The notes under the pieces are model-generated. The model was not told the DNA's origin and did not search any database. It was given only the letters and a program-made list of their open reading frames with translations. A stretch of 64,000 bases of DNA. Source: Candidatus Nitronereus thalassa. GTDB lineage: Bacteria; Nitrospirota; Nitrospiria; Nitrospirales; UBA8639. Position 1 is the stretch's first letter. Every line of letters starts with the position of its first letter. The DNA is taken from the NCBI RefSeq assembly GCF_032191465.1, contig NZ_JAQOUE010000001.1, forward strand, positions 1,240,001 to 1,304,000, written 5' to 3'. Below, piece after piece: positions 5,240 through 62,918 of this stretch. A program made the translations under genes and the position numbers.

Positions 5240-6979
5240 TTACCTCAATCGACCAAGTCCGGCATGACGAAGATCCTTATTCAATTCAAACTGGATTCGC
5301 AGAGTAAACGGTTGCGGGGCACTCTTCTTGGGATCAGAGTTCTCACATTTCCAAAAACATTCTCCCGGCAATTTCCTCAACGCATCGTCCACGCTATCGG
5401 CAAATTTTTCCTCTTCATCGATGTGCACGATCTGAATGTGAGCAATGGTCCCACCTTTCCCAGAGACCAATGCCACCGCATGGCGGCGGTTCCCTGGAAG
5501 GTACCCTGAGGTAGGAATGGATTCTGCGACTGAGGGATGCCATCGATGATCCAACCAGGTGCGTAAAGACGTAACCCAATCTTCAGCTTCCAAATTCGAC
5601 AGACCATCTTCACTATGATCTTCCACGACTTCCACTGAAACCGTTCGAGATTCTTCCGGAACCGGAAGCACCAACGCATCAAAAGTAATGGTGGCGTCTT
5701 GACGAGATAGCAGGGCTCCCCAAAAAGTTGCGTTCCCCATCAGAAAGGGCGACGACGAGCGAGGCAGACCAACGGTCCCATCCGGCCTTATGTGCACATA
5801 TAAATCCATCCGCCAAGACCATTCCGACGAAACCGCGAGCACTTCGCCTGATTCTCGAATAGCCCGAACAAATAACCGTCGTGGCGCTTGCAGGGCTTCA
5901 CGAAACAATTGCTGCGCTCCGGCATCTGACTCTTCAAAACCTAGCACAATTTCTCCACCCTCTGGCCCACCTCGCTCCACAATATTGATAGCGGCATCAA
6001 GTGTGGTCAGGGCTTTTTCTCGTATGGTTGCTGACACAGGAATATTTACGGTTAACGCATGCGAGGCATCCTTGTTTCCAGAATGCGATTGATAATTTAA
6101 GTTTCCTAAACGGATATCGAGCGCCTGAGACCATAAATCATGAGCGATACTGGCCGCAGCCTCGCGTACATGCTTTAACCGTTCCAACCCTAATACCGTA
6201 TCCGTTCTAAGGGTCGTAGCAATCGAAGCCTGGGTTTCGGTAGATGGAGCCTGACTTCCTATCTCTTTATGAATATCCAGGATTTCTTGAGAATCAAATT
6301 GAACGATTGGCGCTTCGTTTCCCACCGAGGAAAGTTCCTCCACATGTGATTCCCTTCCCTTTGAATCAAAGACTTGGCCTAAACTGGAAGCCAGTTCAAG
6401 CTCAAGCCCTGGAATGTCCTGAGGCGATCCGGTGACGCGGAATGTCCGAACGACAGCGCCTTGTTCGACATCTAGCAGATGCACTTCGAGGATTAACTCC
6501 TCCCCGCCAACATAATAGAGACCACTCAGTAAATACCGGGCGCCCACAAGTCGCCCCAAGCGAACCGAGGACGCCTCCTCAAAGGCACCCCGATGCTGTA
6601 GCCATTGCTCTCGAAGAACTTCCCCTAATCGATGCCGAGACACGACACGAACTCCGGGAAGCAAAGCCAAGTCCGTGACTAACATGTCAGGCAACCCTTG
6701 CCGCAACCAGCTTAAATCCTGTCGATTGGAATAATCTTCAAACGGGAGAATGGCCAGAGAATAGGGAGAAGAAACCGGGTGAGGCGTATCAACAGAAGAA
6801 ACCGTCGATGGGATTGGAATAGGGGCTGGAGGATTGGCTGGATTATTGACCTCAGCACATCCCCCTAACAGAGTGGCTAGTCCAGCCAAGAAAAAAATCA
6901 GACAGATGACCCAAAGCCGGTCAAACCCGACAGAGCTGCTTCTCGGACTACACGTACTCGCATTTCCCCGGACCATCAT
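5240..6979 (-). CDS. Lipoprotein with CsgG/TolB-N-like domain
   Basis: A 579-residue predicted lipoprotein. The N-terminus has a hydrophobic core (VICLIFFLAGLATLLGG) ending in the lipobox LGGC, Cys at about residue 41, then a Pro-rich linker. Residues ~75-200 begin YSLAILPFEDYSNRQDLSWL and include LPDMLVTDLALLPGVRVVSR and GARYLLSGLYYV. This is the fold pattern of CsgG, FlgO and TolB-N-like periplasmic domains, which often assemble at the outer membrane. The rest is not recognised. It lies 22 bases after the PilZ gene. A FlgO/FlgP/FlgT-like flagellar accessory role is plausible from context but not shown. Confidence 0.6.
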   Translation of the reverse strand: MMVRGNASTCSPRSSSVGFDRLWVICLIFFLAGLATLLGGCAEVNNPANPPAPIPIPSTVSSVDTPHPVSSPYSLAILPFEDYSNRQDLSWLRQGLPDMLVTDLALLPGVRVVSRHRLGEVLREQWLQHRGAFEEASSVRLGRLVGARYLLSGLYYVGGEELILEVHLLDVEQGAVVRTFRVTGSPQDIPGLELELASSLGQVFDSKGRESHVEELSSVGNEAPIVQFDSQEILDIHKEIGSQAPSTETQASIATTLRTDTVLGLERLKHVREAAASIAHDLWSQALDIRLGNLNYQSHSGNKDASHALTVNIPVSATIREKALTTLDAAINIVERGGPEGGEIVLGFEESDAGAQQLFREALQAPRRLFVRAIRESGEVLAVSSEWSWRMDLYVHIRPDGTVGLPRSSSPFLMGNATFWGALLSRQDATITFDALVLPVPEESRTVSVEVVEDHSEDGLSNLEAEDWVTSLRTWLDHRWHPSVAESIPTSGYLPGNRRHAVALVSGKGGTIAHIQIVHIDEEEKFADSVDDALRKLPGECFWKCENSDPKKSAPQPFTLRIQFELNKDLRHAGLGRLR

Positions 6980-7001: not shown

Positions 7002-7625
7002 CTAGGTCACAAAAGCTTCTTGGTGGGTAAGACGTTGGCGTTGCAAACTAGCTTGCGCCCGAAAGACATGCCGAATAATAGCTTCCCGATCATCAGACCC
7101 AATTTCAGAGAATTCACAGGCCGTTTCAAATCGGGTTTCCCCCTCAACCTTCATGGGGCGAACTCGCAGAACCTTTGCTAAGGCTTGAATAGGGACAAAC
7201 GGGCGAAGCACCATGCGAAGCATCACCTCGGACTCTGTGGGAAACTCCTGCCGAGTGAGAAACCGAATCCCAGAGGCACTCATATTCGCCATCAAAAATT
7301 CAGGAAATCCTTGTTGAACCGGGGAGTTTTTTCCTAAAGTTTTCATCACTGTCGTCAACATCCAATCAATGCGTGTCAGCATTTGGAGTAACAAAGGTTC
7401 TTGCGTCAGAAGATCGGTTTGGGTCACCATGGATTTCACTAAATCCGGGGACACCGCGAGATCATCCCATTGCCAAGAAACATTCACCCCGTGTCTAGGC
7501 GGGAGTGCTTCGCAGGAAAGAGCCAACGGCATATCCACGGACACGCAGATGGGCATATCAGCACGAAAGTCTTGGCGTCGATCGTCTCCTTGAAGTTCAG
7601 GTGAAGGAACAGGTGGCTTACTCAT
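7002..7625 (-). CDS. PilZ-domain c-di-GMP receptor with long internal insert
   Basis: 207 residues when started at ATG 7625, which has AAAGGA at good spacing; an ATG three codons upstream is possible but lacks one. Both c-di-GMP-binding signatures are present: RQDFR (RxxxR) at residues 17-21 and NMSASG (D/NxSxxG) at 114-119. In ordinary PilZ proteins these lie close together, but here about 90 residues separate them, including a helical-looking stretch around 60-100. That recalls the tetrameric 'tPilZ' proteins with inserted helices. As a neighbour of flagellar genes it may link c-di-GMP to motility or to the lipoprotein encoded next. Confidence 0.75.
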   Translation of the reverse strand: MSKPPVPSPELQGDDRRQDFRADMPICVSVDMPLALSCEALPPRHGVNVSWQWDDLAVSPDLVKSMVTQTDLLTQEPLLLQMLTRIDWMLTTVMKTLGKNSPVQQGFPEFLMANMSASGIRFLTRQEFPTESEVMLRMVLRPFVPIQALAKVLRVRPMKVEGETRFETACEFSEIGSDDREAIIRHVFRAQASLQRQRLTHQEAFVT

Positions 7626-7813
7626 TCTTGACATCCTTTCTTGCTAGAACCCTCATTCCACATTACCTTTTCTTCCAGGCATACCATTCCCAGCGACCTC
7701 GATCTTTCCACATGCGTCGCCAAAACATGAACAGCAATACACCCATTTCCTACTCTACCTTTCTTCAACATTCACTGGCTCAACACATCACTCCAGAGCA
7801 TCCTTCTCGACTT

Positions 7814-8113
7814 CTACAAGCTATCCGTCGGCTTCTCGTGGCTCCTAGGCGCAGGACCATTTTTTTGTTGAACATCCTGCCGAAGTTGAATGATAAGATC
7901 CCGAGAATCCCGAGCCGCCTGCCGAATTTTTTCAAAATATTCCCGAAGGGTTGGATCTTCACAACGGCGCGAGCCCAAATCAGAGAACGCGACAATAGGC
8001 AGTAACTTATTCGAAAGAGTATGCAAGACTCTAGGCATATGAGGAACCCAATCATCTTCTTCCCAGGTGAGCTTCTCCACGGATACGGATTCCTGTGATG
8101 GTTTAACTTTCAT
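7814..8113 (-). CDS. Stand-alone histidine-kinase DHp-like mini-protein
   Basis: 99 residues with no other domain. Residues ~29-80 read like the dimerisation/phosphotransfer helices of a histidine kinase: an H-box-like LHTLSNKLLPIVAFSDLG with His31 in the phospho-acceptor position, a turn, and a second helix EYFEKIRQAARDSRDLIIQL. There is no ATPase domain, so it could only act as a phosphotransfer or decoy partner, as Spo0B or ChpT do. A sigma-54-type promoter lies about 75 bases upstream, tying it to the flagellar regulon. PilZ follows 188 bases downstream. The reading is by pattern only; function is unknown. Confidence 0.55.
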   Translation of the reverse strand: MKVKPSQESVSVEKLTWEEDDWVPHMPRVLHTLSNKLLPIVAFSDLGSRRCEDPTLREYFEKIRQAARDSRDLIIQLRQDVQQKNGPAPRSHEKPTDSL

Positions 8114-8186
8114 TCTTGGTCAATACCCTCCGGTCAACTTATGCACACCCAGAACATTAATAGGGGACTTATCTCTTAGCTAATGA

Positions 8187-8202
8187 AGCAATTTTTAAGC
8201 CA
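8187..8202 (-). promoter_or_regulatory. Sigma-54-type promoter of the DHp-like gene
   Basis: On the - strand the bases read TGGCTTAAAAATTGCT. They match the -24/-12 consensus TGGCACG-N4-TTGCT at TGGC and TTGCT, with exactly 10 bases between GG and GC. The predicted start of transcription is near 8177, leaving a leader of about 64 bases before the ATG at 8113. Confidence 0.6.
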
Positions 8203-8431
8203 ATTCATAGATCAAGCATCCCCCAAAGGAGAGACTTGGACAACTTATGGTTTTAAAAGCAATTTCTGTTCCCGTAGTCTTTCTCACCGAGACTAGAGAA
8301 GAACCACCAAAGATAAAGGGCAACGACCACTCTTTGACGCCTTCCTGTCAAAAGAATGACGAATGACAGACCACCTTTAATCACGAGTTTTAGGATAAGG
8401 TTTGAAAATAGATTGAGGGAATTCTTGGGAA
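8203..8431. other. Intergenic region between the fliT-like gene and the DHp-like gene
   Basis: The full gap is 8114-8431 (318 bases) and its only recognisable element is the sigma-54-type site at 8187-8202. The rest is AT-rich and shows no convincing terminator hairpin after the fliT-like gene and no conserved-looking reading frame. Confidence 0.5.
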
Positions 8432-8956
8432 TTAGGACTGTTCGTGAAAGCGATGTCCAACTGTTTCTGATTCGCGAGAGGGAACCGTCCAAGGGCTTTG
8501 GGCGGGAGTAGTCATGACGGGGACGGTTTCGTCCTGAGTAGAAACACTCGGGATGTTGGGGGTTGGAATCATACCGTGGGAAGCCACTTGCTTTTGCTGC
8601 AGATAAGACGCCAAGACACCGCGGTGGGGTTGAGAGGAACGGTATTGCTGGATATCAGCCTTCATTTGACTTAACCAACTTTGAAGACGGGTTTCATTTT
8701 CCTGCACTTGCCGCTGCGCCCGCTCCATAAGTAAAACGAGGTGCCTAGAGTCCGACAGAAATGAGGTTTCACGAATACTTTTAATATCCGTGGCTTCGAC
8801 TAGATCTTTTCGGTTGGCCTCAATTATCAAAAAAAGATCGGTACTGGCTTCTCTCAATTGATTCAACAGGCTTTCGTCCCGATTTTCAATCGCCTTCGCT
8901 ATTCTACCTTGTAAATGAAGATAAGCCTGATATTGGTCAATAAGAGTGTAAATCAT
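8432..8956 (-). CDS. fliT: FliT-like flagellar export chaperone
   Basis: 174 residues from ATG 8956, four bases after the fliS stop. An upstream ATG (9007) would overlap fliS and only translates fliS sequence out of frame, so it is not used. The first ~110 residues are highly helical and charged (MIYTLIDQYQAYLHLQGRIA, then ENRDESLLNQL and RAQRQVQENETRLQSWLSQM), as in FliT/FlgN-type chaperones. The last ~55 are Pro/Ser/Thr-rich and probably disordered. In other bacteria FliT binds FliD before export. Position directly after fliD-fliS is the main support; sequence similarity alone is weak. Confidence 0.6.
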   Translation of the reverse strand: MIYTLIDQYQAYLHLQGRIAKAIENRDESLLNQLREASTDLFLIIEANRKDLVEATDIKSIRETSFLSDSRHLVLLMERAQRQVQENETRLQSWLSQMKADIQQYRSSQPHRGVLASYLQQKQVASHGMIPTPNIPSVSTQDETVPVMTTPAQSPWTVPSRESETVGHRFHEQS

Positions 8957-8960
8957 CGGT

Positions 8961-9389
8961 CTAAATCTGGGATTTGAGGGCACTCGCCCCTGTGGAAACT
9001 TCTCCATCTTTTGTCATGAGATCTAATTCCTGCCATCCTTTTCGTAATTCTTCCAGGACACCCAGGACTGTTCCAAGTGGCGCAGGATCACTATTCATGT
9101 TGGCAATTGTGATTTCTCGAATCATGAACTCGTACATGGCATCTAATTTTTCCGCGACGACTCCACCATCCTCCCGATTCAACACGGCTTGTAATTCACA
9201 CAGAATATCCACGACTCGATTGAGGGCTTCCCCTTTGGCTTTTTCATTTTCCCTCTCGATATGTTGCACCGATTGGCGCACTAAGGCAACGGCCTTGTCA
9301 TACAATAACACCACGAGCCGCACAGGAGAGGCCTGCTCCACCTCGTGCTGCACCTGCTGCTGTCGATACATCTGAAGATTAGGATTCAA
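8961..9389 (-). CDS. fliS: Flagellin export chaperone FliS
   Basis: 142 residues. FliS keeps flagellin unfolded for export through the flagellar type III system. The N-terminus MNPNLQMYRQQQVQHEVEQ followed by ASPVRLVVLLYDKAV fits the family (normally AxPxxLIxMLYDG), and LNREDGGVVAEKLDAMYEFM matches the conserved second half. The family-like N-terminus needs a TTG start at 9389; an ATG seven codons in (9371) is the alternative. Neither has a clear Shine-Dalgarno, so coupling to fliD, whose stop is 18 bases upstream, is likely. Confidence 0.92.
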   Translation of the reverse strand: MNPNLQMYRQQQVQHEVEQASPVRLVVLLYDKAVALVRQSVQHIERENEKAKGEALNRVVDILCELQAVLNREDGGVVAEKLDAMYEFMIREITIANMNSDPAPLGTVLGVLEELRKGWQELDLMTKDGEVSTGASALKSQI

Positions 9390-38617: not shown

Positions 38618-40978
38618 TTACACGTCTTCCTTCGTCCCAGGCGAACACCCGGACAACGCATACTGCTGCCCTTCCCGATCAGGCACACATGCCTGTGTTA
38701 AAGCCAGAGACAAATCTTCTACGTCAAAAGGCTTCTGCACAAATCCTGCCAGACCTTCATCGCAAAGCTGTTGAACGGAATAGGGCACCTCTCCACCACT
38801 GGAAAATACAACCTTGAGGGAAGGATTGATGGTCTGGAGGGTCCGAAAGCAGTTTTCCCCGCTCATCGTGGTCATGGTGAGATCTAACAGGACCACATCA
38901 ATTTCATGGGCATGGCCTTGATAGCAAGTCAAAGCCTCCTCTCCGCTATAGGCCACACACGTCTCACATTCCAAATGGCGCAACATCTCCACTGTTGTGT
39001 CCGCGACCAAATGCTCATCATCCACGACCAACACCCGCGGATGAGGTTTTTTTAACAAGGTAGGTAAATGAATCAGGCTAGACGGAGGACTTGGGTGTTG
39101 TGGAAAATAGAGATGAAATGCACTCCCTTTATGAGGCTCACTGGAGAGAGAAATATGCCCTCCATAGGATTCCACGATCTCCTTAACAATCGCTAAACCC
39201 ATTCCAGACCCCCGGCTAGGAGGTTTGGTCGTGAAGAAGGGCTCAAACACGGTTTCAGCGAGTTCCGCGGAAATACCGCATCCTGAGTCCTTCACAATAA
39301 TTTCCAAATAGGGGGAATCATGAAATGAAGAATTTTGAGAGTAGGCTGGATCATGGGGTCGAAAAGAGTCGGTTGAAATTTGTAACGTCCCCCCATTCGG
39401 CATCGCATCACACGCATTTACCATAAGATTGAGCAACACCTGATGCAGTTGCCTCGCATTCACACCGATCCAAGGATCCCGTGCCACTAAAGCTTTCATA
39501 ATCTGAATGCTCTTGGTCCGGTCGCCAGACAGAAGCGCAAGAACTTCATCAATGGCATCATGGACATTAATGGAGGTACGCCGCTCTTTTCCCCTTCTTG
39601 CTGCTCCAAGAAGCTGGGCCGTAAGTTCTTGACCCCGATGAGCCGCCTGACGAATCACTTCCGCAGGTTTTTGAGTCGCAGCATCAGAAGAATCTTTATA
39701 GGTTAGAAGACTGGCATGGCCCTGGATCGCCGTTAAAATGTTATTGACATCATGGGCAATGCCCCCAGCCAGGTTTCCGATGGATTCGATTTCTTGAAAT
39801 TGCCGTACTTGCTCCTGCATTCGTTGTACTTCCATGCGAAGTTCGCTCAACTCTTGCACATTTTTCGCTACCAGCACGAAGCGAACCCCTTCGCTCCAAC
39901 AGACTGGATAGGTCGTGACCATGACTTTCAATGTCGAGCCGCCACGGGTCCGAAAGCAAGCCTCTCGAGATCCATGACCATTCTGGTTGGAAGACCACCA
40001 GTCCAACGGAACCGAGGGTTCAAGCATCACTAAGGAATGCCCGCACAGCTCACTGCCAGACCAAGATAGTTGCCGACAGCCCTGTGGGTTCAGATCCACA
40101 ATCTTGCCTTCACCATCAGTAAGAATGACCACCTCATCAAACTCGTGGAGGAATTTTTTGAATTCCTCATCACCCGGTTTCGACAAAGCAGATGAGGTAC
40201 TCCATTCGCCCGAGAAAAGATTGCCAACACGTGTTCGCTCGGCTTTGACCAGCAACTCATCAAGATATTTCGGATCCACTGGTTCTCGAATAAATTCATC
40301 GGCGCCGTACTGCAGGGATTCCAGGGCTAATTCCGGATTGGGATCGTCAGTGACTACAAAAATTTTTGCATTGGGTGCATGCCCCTTGAAGTCGGCTACC
40401 CAGTCAAGACTCCAACAACCAGCAAAAGGATGATGTCCTACGATCAGGTCAGGACTATCCCCTGCTTCTTGCCAGCAAGGCTCTGGTACTCCCTGAGACT
40501 CTCCGACCGACCAACCATTGCGTTGGAACATTCGGGACAAGCTGGTTAACCATTCCGTTTCCTCCCCAATCACCTGAACTCGAAACGGAGCCAGCAGCGT
40601 CTTCCCCTCAAGAATCTGAACCAAAGATTGAGTCAAAGATGCCGGGTCCAAAGGCAACGGAAGAAACGCCTGCCCTCCGAGGAAAGCGGTCACACGTTCC
40701 CCTTCCATTGTCGACAAACTCGAGGACAAGCAGAGTATCGGAATATTGGCAAACCTGGCCTGATAGCCACGACGGAGCATCCGACAAAACTCCCAACCAC
40801 TCACACCAGGTAGGCGAAGGTCAATGACCATGACATCGATGGAACCTTCCCCTTGGAGGACACGGCATGCATCTTCCGCATCGGCACTCACCACAATCTC
40901 CCACCCTTGGTGCTGGAGCAAGGAGCTAAGAAAATGCCGCTGTACCGAATCATGATGGACGATCAGAATACGTGACAT
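38618..40978 (-). CDS. Hybrid sensor histidine kinase (REC-REC-PAS-HisKA-HATPase-REC)
   Basis: 786 residues from ATG 40978; the frame upstream overlaps the previous gene and is not used. The first receiver has Asp53 in VMVIDLRLPGVSGW. A second, degenerate receiver-like region follows (KIFVVTDDPNPELALESLQY, then GADEFIREPVDP). A PAS domain contains VVILTDGEGKIVDLNPQGC. The H-box is GGIAHDVNNILTAIQGH, and the ATPase has VLLNLMVNACDAMPNGG and GSGMGLAIVKEI. The C-terminal receiver has its Asp near residue 700 (VVLLDLTMTTMSG). No membrane segment, so it senses a cytosolic cue. Encoded 25 bases after the diguanylate cyclase. Confidence 0.85.
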   Translation of the reverse strand: MSRILIVHHDSVQRHFLSSLLQHQGWEIVVSADAEDACRVLQGEGSIDVMVIDLRLPGVSGWEFCRMLRRGYQARFANIPILCLSSSLSTMEGERVTAFLGGQAFLPLPLDPASLTQSLVQILEGKTLLAPFRVQVIGEETEWLTSLSRMFQRNGWSVGESQGVPEPCWQEAGDSPDLIVGHHPFAGCWSLDWVADFKGHAPNAKIFVVTDDPNPELALESLQYGADEFIREPVDPKYLDELLVKAERTRVGNLFSGEWSTSSALSKPGDEEFKKFLHEFDEVVILTDGEGKIVDLNPQGCRQLSWSGSELCGHSLVMLEPSVPLDWWSSNQNGHGSREACFRTRGGSTLKVMVTTYPVCWSEGVRFVLVAKNVQELSELRMEVQRMQEQVRQFQEIESIGNLAGGIAHDVNNILTAIQGHASLLTYKDSSDAATQKPAEVIRQAAHRGQELTAQLLGAARRGKERRTSINVHDAIDEVLALLSGDRTKSIQIMKALVARDPWIGVNARQLHQVLLNLMVNACDAMPNGGTLQISTDSFRPHDPAYSQNSSFHDSPYLEIIVKDSGCGISAELAETVFEPFFTTKPPSRGSGMGLAIVKEIVESYGGHISLSSEPHKGSAFHLYFPQHPSPPSSLIHLPTLLKKPHPRVLVVDDEHLVADTTVEMLRHLECETCVAYSGEEALTCYQGHAHEIDVVLLDLTMTTMSGENCFRTLQTINPSLKVVFSSGGEVPYSVQQLCDEGLAGFVQKPFDVEDLSLALTQACVPDREGQQYALSGCSPGTKEDV

Positions 40979-41003
40979 TACAAAAAATCCTTCATGCCTA
41001 ACG

Positions 41004-41951
41004 TCATGATGTCGAGACCTGGGTATTTTGGTTTGTTCGATCAACTTCCAAATATTCGACACGATTCCGTCCACTATATTTCGCCAAATACATTCCCCCA
41101 TCCGCCGCTTTCAACAGGCTTTCAATATCGCCTTGCGAGGTACTCGTCCACGTCGTGACCCCTTGACTACAGGTCACGGTCACCGAAAAATCTGAAAACA
41201 CATACGGACGTTCTCCCATTGCCGCCTTCACACGCGCTGCTTCATTTAAGGCATTGGTCGCATCACTTCCCGGCAAAACGATAAGAAACTCCTCGCCACC
41301 ATATCTCCCCAATGAATCATAGGGACGTATACAAGATCCCATTCGTCGGCTCGCTTCGATGAGTACCGCATCGCCAACCAGGTGGCCATGGGTATCATTG
41401 ATTGTCTTAAAATTATCGAGGTCAACCAATATGACACTAATTGGACTCTGCTCCCGTTGAGCCCGAGCCAGTTCTCGATCTAAGTTTTCCAGAATAGCCG
41501 CGCGGTTTAAAAGACCCGTTAACGTGTCATGAGTGGCCTGGATACGCAGGGACTCTTGAGCCGCCATTAGCTCAGCTTGAAGTTCCAAAATTCGCCGTCC
41601 TGCACGAAGCCGTACTTCCAGTTCCTCCACATTAAATGGTTTCGTGAGGTAATCGTCCGCCCCGGCTTCCATTCCTGCGACAAGATCTGCCGTTTCGCCT
41701 CGCGATGTAAGTAATAAAATATAAATGTAGGGTGTGTTTCGATTCGCCCGAACATTCTGGCAAATTTGCAAGCCATCCAAGCCAGGCATCATCCAATCCA
41801 AAATGGCCAAACGCGGAGGAGACTCAGATTGCAAAATCTTCCAGGCTTCTTGCCCATCCGTACAGACCGTGACGTTGTACTGCCATTTTTGCAGTTTGGA
41901 TCTGAGCAAATGGAGCGACACTGGATCATCATCCGCAAGCAGGACATCCAT
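41004..41951 (-). CDS. Response-regulator diguanylate cyclase (REC-GGDEF)
   Basis: 315 residues. The receiver has DDD at 7-9, Asp52 in LAILDWMMPGLDG and the Lys in YLTKPFN. A short helical linker leads to a GGDEF domain with an intact GGEEF (218-222) and an inhibitory RxxD (R209-D212) five residues before it. It should therefore make c-di-GMP and be product-inhibited. It pairs with the hybrid kinase encoded next. The nearest candidate c-di-GMP receptor in the window is the PilZ protein at 7002-7625. Confidence 0.9.
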   Translation of the reverse strand: MDVLLADDDPVSLHLLRSKLQKWQYNVTVCTDGQEAWKILQSESPPRLAILDWMMPGLDGLQICQNVRANRNTPYIYILLLTSRGETADLVAGMEAGADDYLTKPFNVEELEVRLRAGRRILELQAELMAAQESLRIQATHDTLTGLLNRAAILENLDRELARAQREQSPISVILVDLDNFKTINDTHGHLVGDAVLIEASRRMGSCIRPYDSLGRYGGEEFLIVLPGSDATNALNEAARVKAAMGERPYVFSDFSVTVTCSQGVTTWTSTSQGDIESLLKAADGGMYLAKYSGRNRVEYLEVDRTNQNTQVSTS

Positions 41952-62223: not shown

Positions 62224-62868
62224 TTAGTTAAAACCAAATTCGCCAAGGATGTCGTCCACCAAATTTTGTTCCAACGCCGTTTTGTTCGAAGCTTCTAATT
62301 GTTTAAGCATTTCATGGCCTCGACCGTCTTGCTTCGATTTTATTTCATCCTGCTTCAATCCAAATACCACCACCAGCTTCAGCAGCTTGTGTTGAATGTC
62401 TTCCAAGATCGTCACCAATTTCTTCACTCGCTGGGCCACTAAGTCTTGGAACGACAAGGCGACGGTGATTTCCATAAGCTGGGCTTCATCCTGCCCCAAC
62501 CTCTGGATCACGGAGGCAATCCGCTCTCGAGCCGGCCCCTGGTCTTCTGCACCCGCCAAAAGCGTTTGCGTCTCTTCCAAAGACTTCATGACCGTGGCGC
62601 GACTGTCCAAAATCTTTTCCGTCAAACTCATGACTTTATGGGTGCCCTCTTCAGTCATGGTCGCCAGTTCTTGTAAAAAATTATTGGCATCTGGTAGCGT
62701 GCTGGCCGTCGACGCCACTGGTGATTCCATATCACGAATCGCCCGTGTAGTTGCTTCCACAAATTTCGCCAACTCCCCGAGTTCTTCATAGATCGTCCGA
62801 TCTTCAGCCGATTCCAAAGGCGTAGGATCTTCCTTCTCTTCCGTCTCAAAACTGCGGTCCATCAACAT
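62224..62868 (-). CDS. cheZ: CheY-P phosphatase CheZ
   Basis: 214 residues from the ATG at 62868, which has GGGAG at the best spacing among three in-frame ATGs. The long helical hairpin contains ITVALSFQDLVAQRVKKLV, where the Gln of FQDL corresponds to the catalytic Gln of E. coli CheZ. The C-terminus VDDILGEFGF matches the CheY-binding tail. Its presence in an operon with cheA and cheY indicates CheZ-type signal termination. Confidence 0.92.
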   Translation of the reverse strand: MLMDRSFETEEKEDPTPLESAEDRTIYEELGELAKFVEATTRAIRDMESPVASTASTLPDANNFLQELATMTEEGTHKVMSLTEKILDSRATVMKSLEETQTLLAGAEDQGPARERIASVIQRLGQDEAQLMEITVALSFQDLVAQRVKKLVTILEDIQHKLLKLVVVFGLKQDEIKSKQDGRGHEMLKQLEASNKTALEQNLVDDILGEFGFN

Positions 62869-62918
62869 GAGCATCTCCCTTGGTCGTAAGTTTTCCAGTC
62901 AGGATATCTATGTGTGAA

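Follow-up and report, generated by a model that had tools for sequence, protein, structure and literature searches.

A stand-alone HisKA-type DHp protein, conserved beside flagellar genes in one Nitrospirales family and preceded by a predicted sigma-54 promoter, probably tunes a response regulator

The phosphatase activity of histidine kinases has mostly been studied within full bifunctional kinases, and Spo0B and ChpT keep a degenerate ATPase-like second domain. To our knowledge, the DHp phosphotransferases described so far still have a vestigial ATPase domain. What is new at the locus described here is a DHp domain that, judging from sequence, serves as a complete, conserved protein; a search of the accessible literature on standalone or “DHp-only” proteins found no relevant paper. 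In four HisKA kinases (CrdS, HK853 and two others), replacing the acid directly after the phospho-accepting histidine (H+1) kills autokinase activity and spares phosphatase activity, and replacing the Asn or Thr at H+4 kills phosphatase activity and spares autokinase activity (PMC3510030). Phosphatase assays have been run with a separate HK853 DHp construct, which also binds its regulator (PMC5727384). Because nucleotide in the CA domain stimulates the phosphatase of full-length HK853 (PMC7005713), a DHp without a CA domain may be a weak phosphatase.

The DHp region of hybrid HisKA kinases, with H-boxes of the HD/EFNN or HEINNKLVPIL type, is the closest described counterpart: the two-helix region is homologous, the His and the H+4 Asn are common to both, and the closest hybrid kinases also share NKL-PI and a SEL-like motif after the His. 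Unlike them, the standalone protein has no sensor, ATPase or receiver, has lost the H+1 acid, and is a separate protein of about 75–110 aa, a length that depends on the start codons chosen in this analysis. With Spo0B and ChpT it shares a phospho-acceptor His and the use of a DHp domain that does not autophosphorylate, although a relay is here a proposal, and the 99-aa protein, which terminates about 14 residues past helix 2, lacks their degenerate ATPase-like second domain. The likeness to CheZ, CheX and CheC lies in the proposed stand-alone dephosphorylation of a receiver and in Asn/Gln-type amide chemistry, but the families are unrelated, and CheX and CheZ use an acid plus an amide where the DHp protein has an amide plus His only. 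The RetS-GacS pair offers a helical DHp fold and the idea of DHp-DHp interference; RetS, however, is a full membrane hybrid, and a decoy would not need the conserved catalytic residues.

The window (the whole 64,000-nucleotide stretch that was analysed) contains the following features at and around the gene.

5240-6979, minus strand: CsgG-like protein, next after PilZ (Pfam CsgG, E 9e-6; order conserved)
7002-7634, minus strand: PilZ-domain protein, conserved downstream neighbour (Pfam PilZ, E 6e-10; order kept in 11 of 12 loci)
7814-8113, minus strand: stand-alone HisKA-type DHp protein, 99 aa (open reading frame, 22-member alignment, kinase profile matches, AlphaFold hairpin)
8187-8203, minus strand: sigma-54-type -24/-12 element TTGGCTTAAAAATTGCT, predicted start near 8176 (sequence; conserved upstream of orthologues; RpoN in genome)
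8432-9007, minus strand: candidate FliT-like flagellar chaperone, upstream neighbour (weak Pfam FliT, E 0.037; position after fliS)
8961-9389, minus strand: fliS, flagellin export chaperone (Pfam FliS, E 1e-31)

The open reading frame at 7814-8113 is a real gene as judged by its conservation, since it has 21 same-family orthologues, invariant residues and dN/dS values of 0.16–0.32 between close orthologue pairs. Orthologues were found in 21 of the 37 same-family genomes searched, each in an open frame of 84–137 codons, and a further, diverged copy is present in genome G048 (locus L022) from another family of the order. Nine residues are invariant in the 22-member alignment (H31, N35, K36, P39, L46, D53, I63, A67 and R71); in the focal protein H31 is the phospho-acceptor position, N35 is H+4, and H+1 is Thr. 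A profile search of 396 genomes of the phylum restricted the standalone clade (E below 1e-26) to this family. All other listed matches at E ≤ 1e-7 sit in open frames of at least 304 codons, and every listed match outside the family falls in a long open frame (300–1200 codons); G048 is absent from the listed hits of this search. Sequence-pattern matches came from records labelled Nitrospirales, Nitrospirae/Nitrospirota or Nitrospira.

Profile comparisons establish homology between the 99-aa protein and HisKA DHp domains. The Pfam HisKA model (PF00512) matches the focal protein at E 0.15 and 12.5 bits, which does not reach the gathering cut-off of 26.9, and matches 16 of the 22 family members (best E 8e-4); the focal protein alone has no significant match in NCBIfam or the PDB. 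Run against its own genome, the family profile matched two kinase frames, both hybrid kinases, precisely at “GGIAHDFNN...” (E 4e-7 and 1.6e-5); a third, weak match (E 0.006) covered the second half only and did not fall at a kinase H-box. Across genomes, profile matches to kinases at the H-box reached E values down to 1e-9/1e-10 per genome, and 17 of 17 kinases examined align with the family at that box. No ATPase domain was found in the frame or in the conserved neighbours scanned, and Hpt (PF01627) is missing both from the focal protein's matches and from the families listed across the 22 members.

AlphaFold, run on the monomer, predicts helices at 23–50 and 54–85, with a mean pLDDT of 94–98 per ten-residue block over residues 31–80. 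The top Foldseek match was the RetS/GacS DHp co-complex (E 0.38), amid many unrelated hairpins; because such hairpins score equally, fold comparison was dropped as proof of DHp identity. These results bear on the initial annotation, which had read the stretch as a 99-residue protein with H31 and N35 and with an H-box-like helix pair but no ATPase domain. The coordinates (7814-8113, minus strand) were exactly reproduced, and the kinase profile matches and the AlphaFold hairpin support the helix pair. Structure prediction, one of the checks it had suggested, gave a two-helix hairpin compatible with DHp, in a fold that is itself generic. Its proposed phospho-acceptor, His31, lies at a position where all 29 members have His.

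The residues around that histidine separate the standalone proteins from the kinases. In 29 distinct standalone sequences the phospho-acceptor His, the Asn at H+4 and the Lys at H+5 are each present in 29 of 29, and H+1 is never an acid (Ser in 21, Val in 4, Ala in 2, Thr and Arg in one each), whereas the 17 closest full kinases all have Asp or Glu at H+1 together with Asn at H+4. The standalone proteins thus lack the autokinase combination of His followed by Asp/Glu plus HATPase_c, and they have the Asn/Thr at H+4 of HisKA-type phosphatases. Read against the published HisKA mutagenesis (PMC3510030), a DHp that has lost the H+1 acid but kept the H+4 Asn has a “kinase off, phosphatase possible” signature. 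The nearest kinase H-boxes are HEINNKLVPILVYSEL, in GAF-PAS hybrid kinases, and the diverged G048 copy has the H-box HIINNKLAPIL. Residue comparison, rather than a tree, suggests that the standalone protein descends from a DHp like that of GAF-PAS hybrid kinases by losing the H+1 acid. Among GAF-PAS hybrid kinases, the one whose H-box is most similar (L126) was considered as partner or resident parent and set aside; it has no clear orthologue in the family, where only generic kinase matches were found.

Within its bacterial family, gene content ties the DHp gene strictly to flagella, with FliS taken as the presence marker. The gene is present in 21 of 21 genomes with FliS and in 0 of 16 without (Fisher p 8e-11, for genomes that are related and hence not independent; one of the 16, G002, is only 64% complete). 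It sits after fliS in all 12 loci examined, mostly with the fliT-like gene in between, and is followed by the PilZ gene and then the CsgG-like gene in 11 of the 12, the twelfth stopping at a contig edge. The PilZ gene (7002-7634) is possibly in one transcription unit with the DHp gene. A profile search of the loci in a different flagellated family of the order found no DHp gene at the equivalent position; there, fliS and the fliT-like gene are followed by PilZ, either directly or after a GAF/GGDEF-type gene, which fills the DHp slot in L059, L063, L064 and L065. Genome G004 (locus L050) has a tandem pair of FliS copies near its DHp gene.

A sigma-54-type promoter element is, by comparison of upstream regions, conserved before the DHp gene. 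The element TTGGCTTAAAAATTGCT has the correct GG-N10-GC spacing and lies 73 bp upstream of the ATG. As a single site, scored with weights that follow the published consensus rather than being fitted, it is only of moderate significance (p about 0.008–0.02 when its own upstream region is shuffled for comparison), and several sites within the 64 kb equal it in score. Comparable elements, typically GGTATGACAATTGC, occur 47–112 bp ahead of nearly every orthologue for which enough upstream sequence is available, and the flanks have diverged between genera; the genome of L007 has GT where the element has GC. For one representative of each of seven genera the combined p is about 2e-10 (2e-9 without the focal genome), an optimistic value given that the seven genera share ancestry. 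RpoN is encoded in 40 of the 41 genomes searched, flagellated or not. An own, well-spaced sigma-54-type promoter in a flagellar context, as put forward in the initial annotation, therefore stands as a predicted element conserved across seven genera. A second sigma-54-like element, CGGGAACAGAAATTGCT, lies at 8274-8258 on the minus strand, 71 bp upstream of TTGGCTTAAAAATTGCT.

Candidate partners were sought inside and beyond the window, which also holds the following two genes.

38618-41101, minus strand: hybrid kinase with three receivers, PAS, HisKA (HDVNN) and HATPase (domain matches)
62224-62874: CheZ, chemotaxis phosphatase, encoded separately

The hybrid kinase adjoins a FliW-like gene and a receiver-GGDEF gene. 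At E ≤ 1e-80, orthologues of this kinase were found in some, but not all, genomes with the DHp gene, and none at that threshold in g3, g5 and g6, genera that keep the DHp gene; on this ground it was rejected as an obligate partner, and the initial annotation's suggestion of this kinase is not supported in the sense of a required partner. Its other suggestion, a FlrB/FleS-type kinase, is a possible partner: beside fliF/fliG homologues on the same contig, beyond the window, lie genes for an FlrB-like kinase with PAS, HisKA and HATPase domains and for an FlrC-like NtrC-type regulator. Since flagellated genomes of another family have FlrB-like kinases but no DHp protein, the FlrB/DHp pairing is put forward as a hypothesis. 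An apparent in-frame stop in FlrB in several genomes proved to be an alignment-end artefact, and the kinases are intact in the regions read. Also beyond the window, the same genome encodes a receiver fused to an anti-sigma-type HATPase_c_2 (L122:3349-4299, minus strand) and a receiver fused to a SpoIIE phosphatase (L123:1095-2393, minus strand); these fusions, in the chemotaxis/flagellar region, are a possible partner-switching module.

The reading we prefer, at a probability of roughly 0.45, is that of a dedicated, kinase-incompetent HisKA DHp protein that would act on the receiver of a flagellar response regulator and remove its phosphoryl group as feedback. The protein would dimerise into a four-helix bundle, and this would dock on a response regulator of the flagellar programme at its receiver domain, the FlrC-like NtrC-type activator being the first candidate target; N35 and H31 would then hydrolyse the receiver phospho-aspartate. 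Because the predicted sigma-54 promoter lies within the flagellin/cap/chaperone region, we propose a feedback role, in which expression from it would lower the regulator once the late flagellar genes are on. Several points weigh against this explanation: CheZ is encoded separately, FlrB-like kinases occur elsewhere without the DHp protein, the Pfam score is below the cut-off, and the fold is not diagnostic. A fuller version strikes us as doubtful: a hybrid kinase would have shed all its domains but the HisKA DHp hairpin, and the autokinase acid as well, and the bare hairpin would be a natural, dedicated response-regulator phosphatase in a sigma-54-driven loop that feeds back on flagellar transcription.

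The main rival is a relay of the Spo0B/ChpT kind, in which H31 would take a phosphoryl group from a receiver, for example that of a hybrid kinase, and hand it to a flagellar response regulator. Spo0B and ChpT do use their DHp domains in this way (PMC5231405). The phospho-acceptor His, invariant in all members, fits such a role, and the genome offers receiver-bearing hybrid kinases, among them the one at 38618-41101, for which three receivers but no Hpt domain were reported. Yet that kinase has no detected close orthologue in several genomes with the DHp gene, the cluster encodes at least one hybrid kinase that has an Hpt domain of its own, and the H+4 Asn is a requirement of the phosphatase reaction that we do not know to be needed for a relay; on balance we regard the relay as rather unlikely, if tenable. 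The initial annotation had listed a phosphotransferase, a kinase decoy and a dimerisation inhibitor. Because the His and the H+4 Asn are kept and the H+1 acid is lost, and a decoy needs no catalytic residues, we retain action on a response regulator, as phosphatase or phosphotransferase, and disfavour the other two.

Such a decoy or inhibitor would join a flagellar histidine kinase in mixed bundles, or occupy that kinase's regulator, as RetS does with GacS. The protein has no means to autophosphorylate, and its top Foldseek match is the RetS/GacS co-complex, but that match is not distinctive, and a decoy role neither needs nor explains an H31 and an N35 that are invariant in at least seven genera, so that we think this improbable. 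We give equally little credence to a structural or chaperone-like flagellar hairpin, or a PilZ partner, that has abandoned phosphate chemistry. The strict synteny with fliS, the fliT-like gene and PilZ and the generic fold would suit it; however, the conserved polar residues match the kinase H-box (H and H+4 N) and not packing positions alone, and the other family has kept a PilZ gene while lacking the DHp gene.

Taken together with the gene neighbourhood, the kept His and Asn and the lost acid lead us to think that the standalone DHp protein probably tunes a flagellar response regulator. The loss of the kinase acid with retention of His and Asn in every member examined amounts to a natural experiment separating two activities of histidine kinases, and it raises a directly testable question, whether a bare DHp is sufficient for response-regulator control in vivo. 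A protein acting as the preferred reading has it would be one more regulator in the flagellar hierarchy of Nitrospirales, which has been little studied.

Two further observations concern flagellar genes elsewhere in the window. Its best sigma-54-like element, TTGGCATGGCCGTTGCT, lies at 51238-51222 on the minus strand, about 40 bp ahead of the point where a flgF-like gene probably begins; this position suggests that the TTG listed as the start of that frame comes too early, and that sigma-54 dependence may extend to other flagellar genes. Beside fliC, positions 14511-37601 hold sugar-nucleotide, aminotransferase, sialic/legionaminic-type synthase and motility-accessory-like genes, a block that looks like a flagellin glycosylation island.
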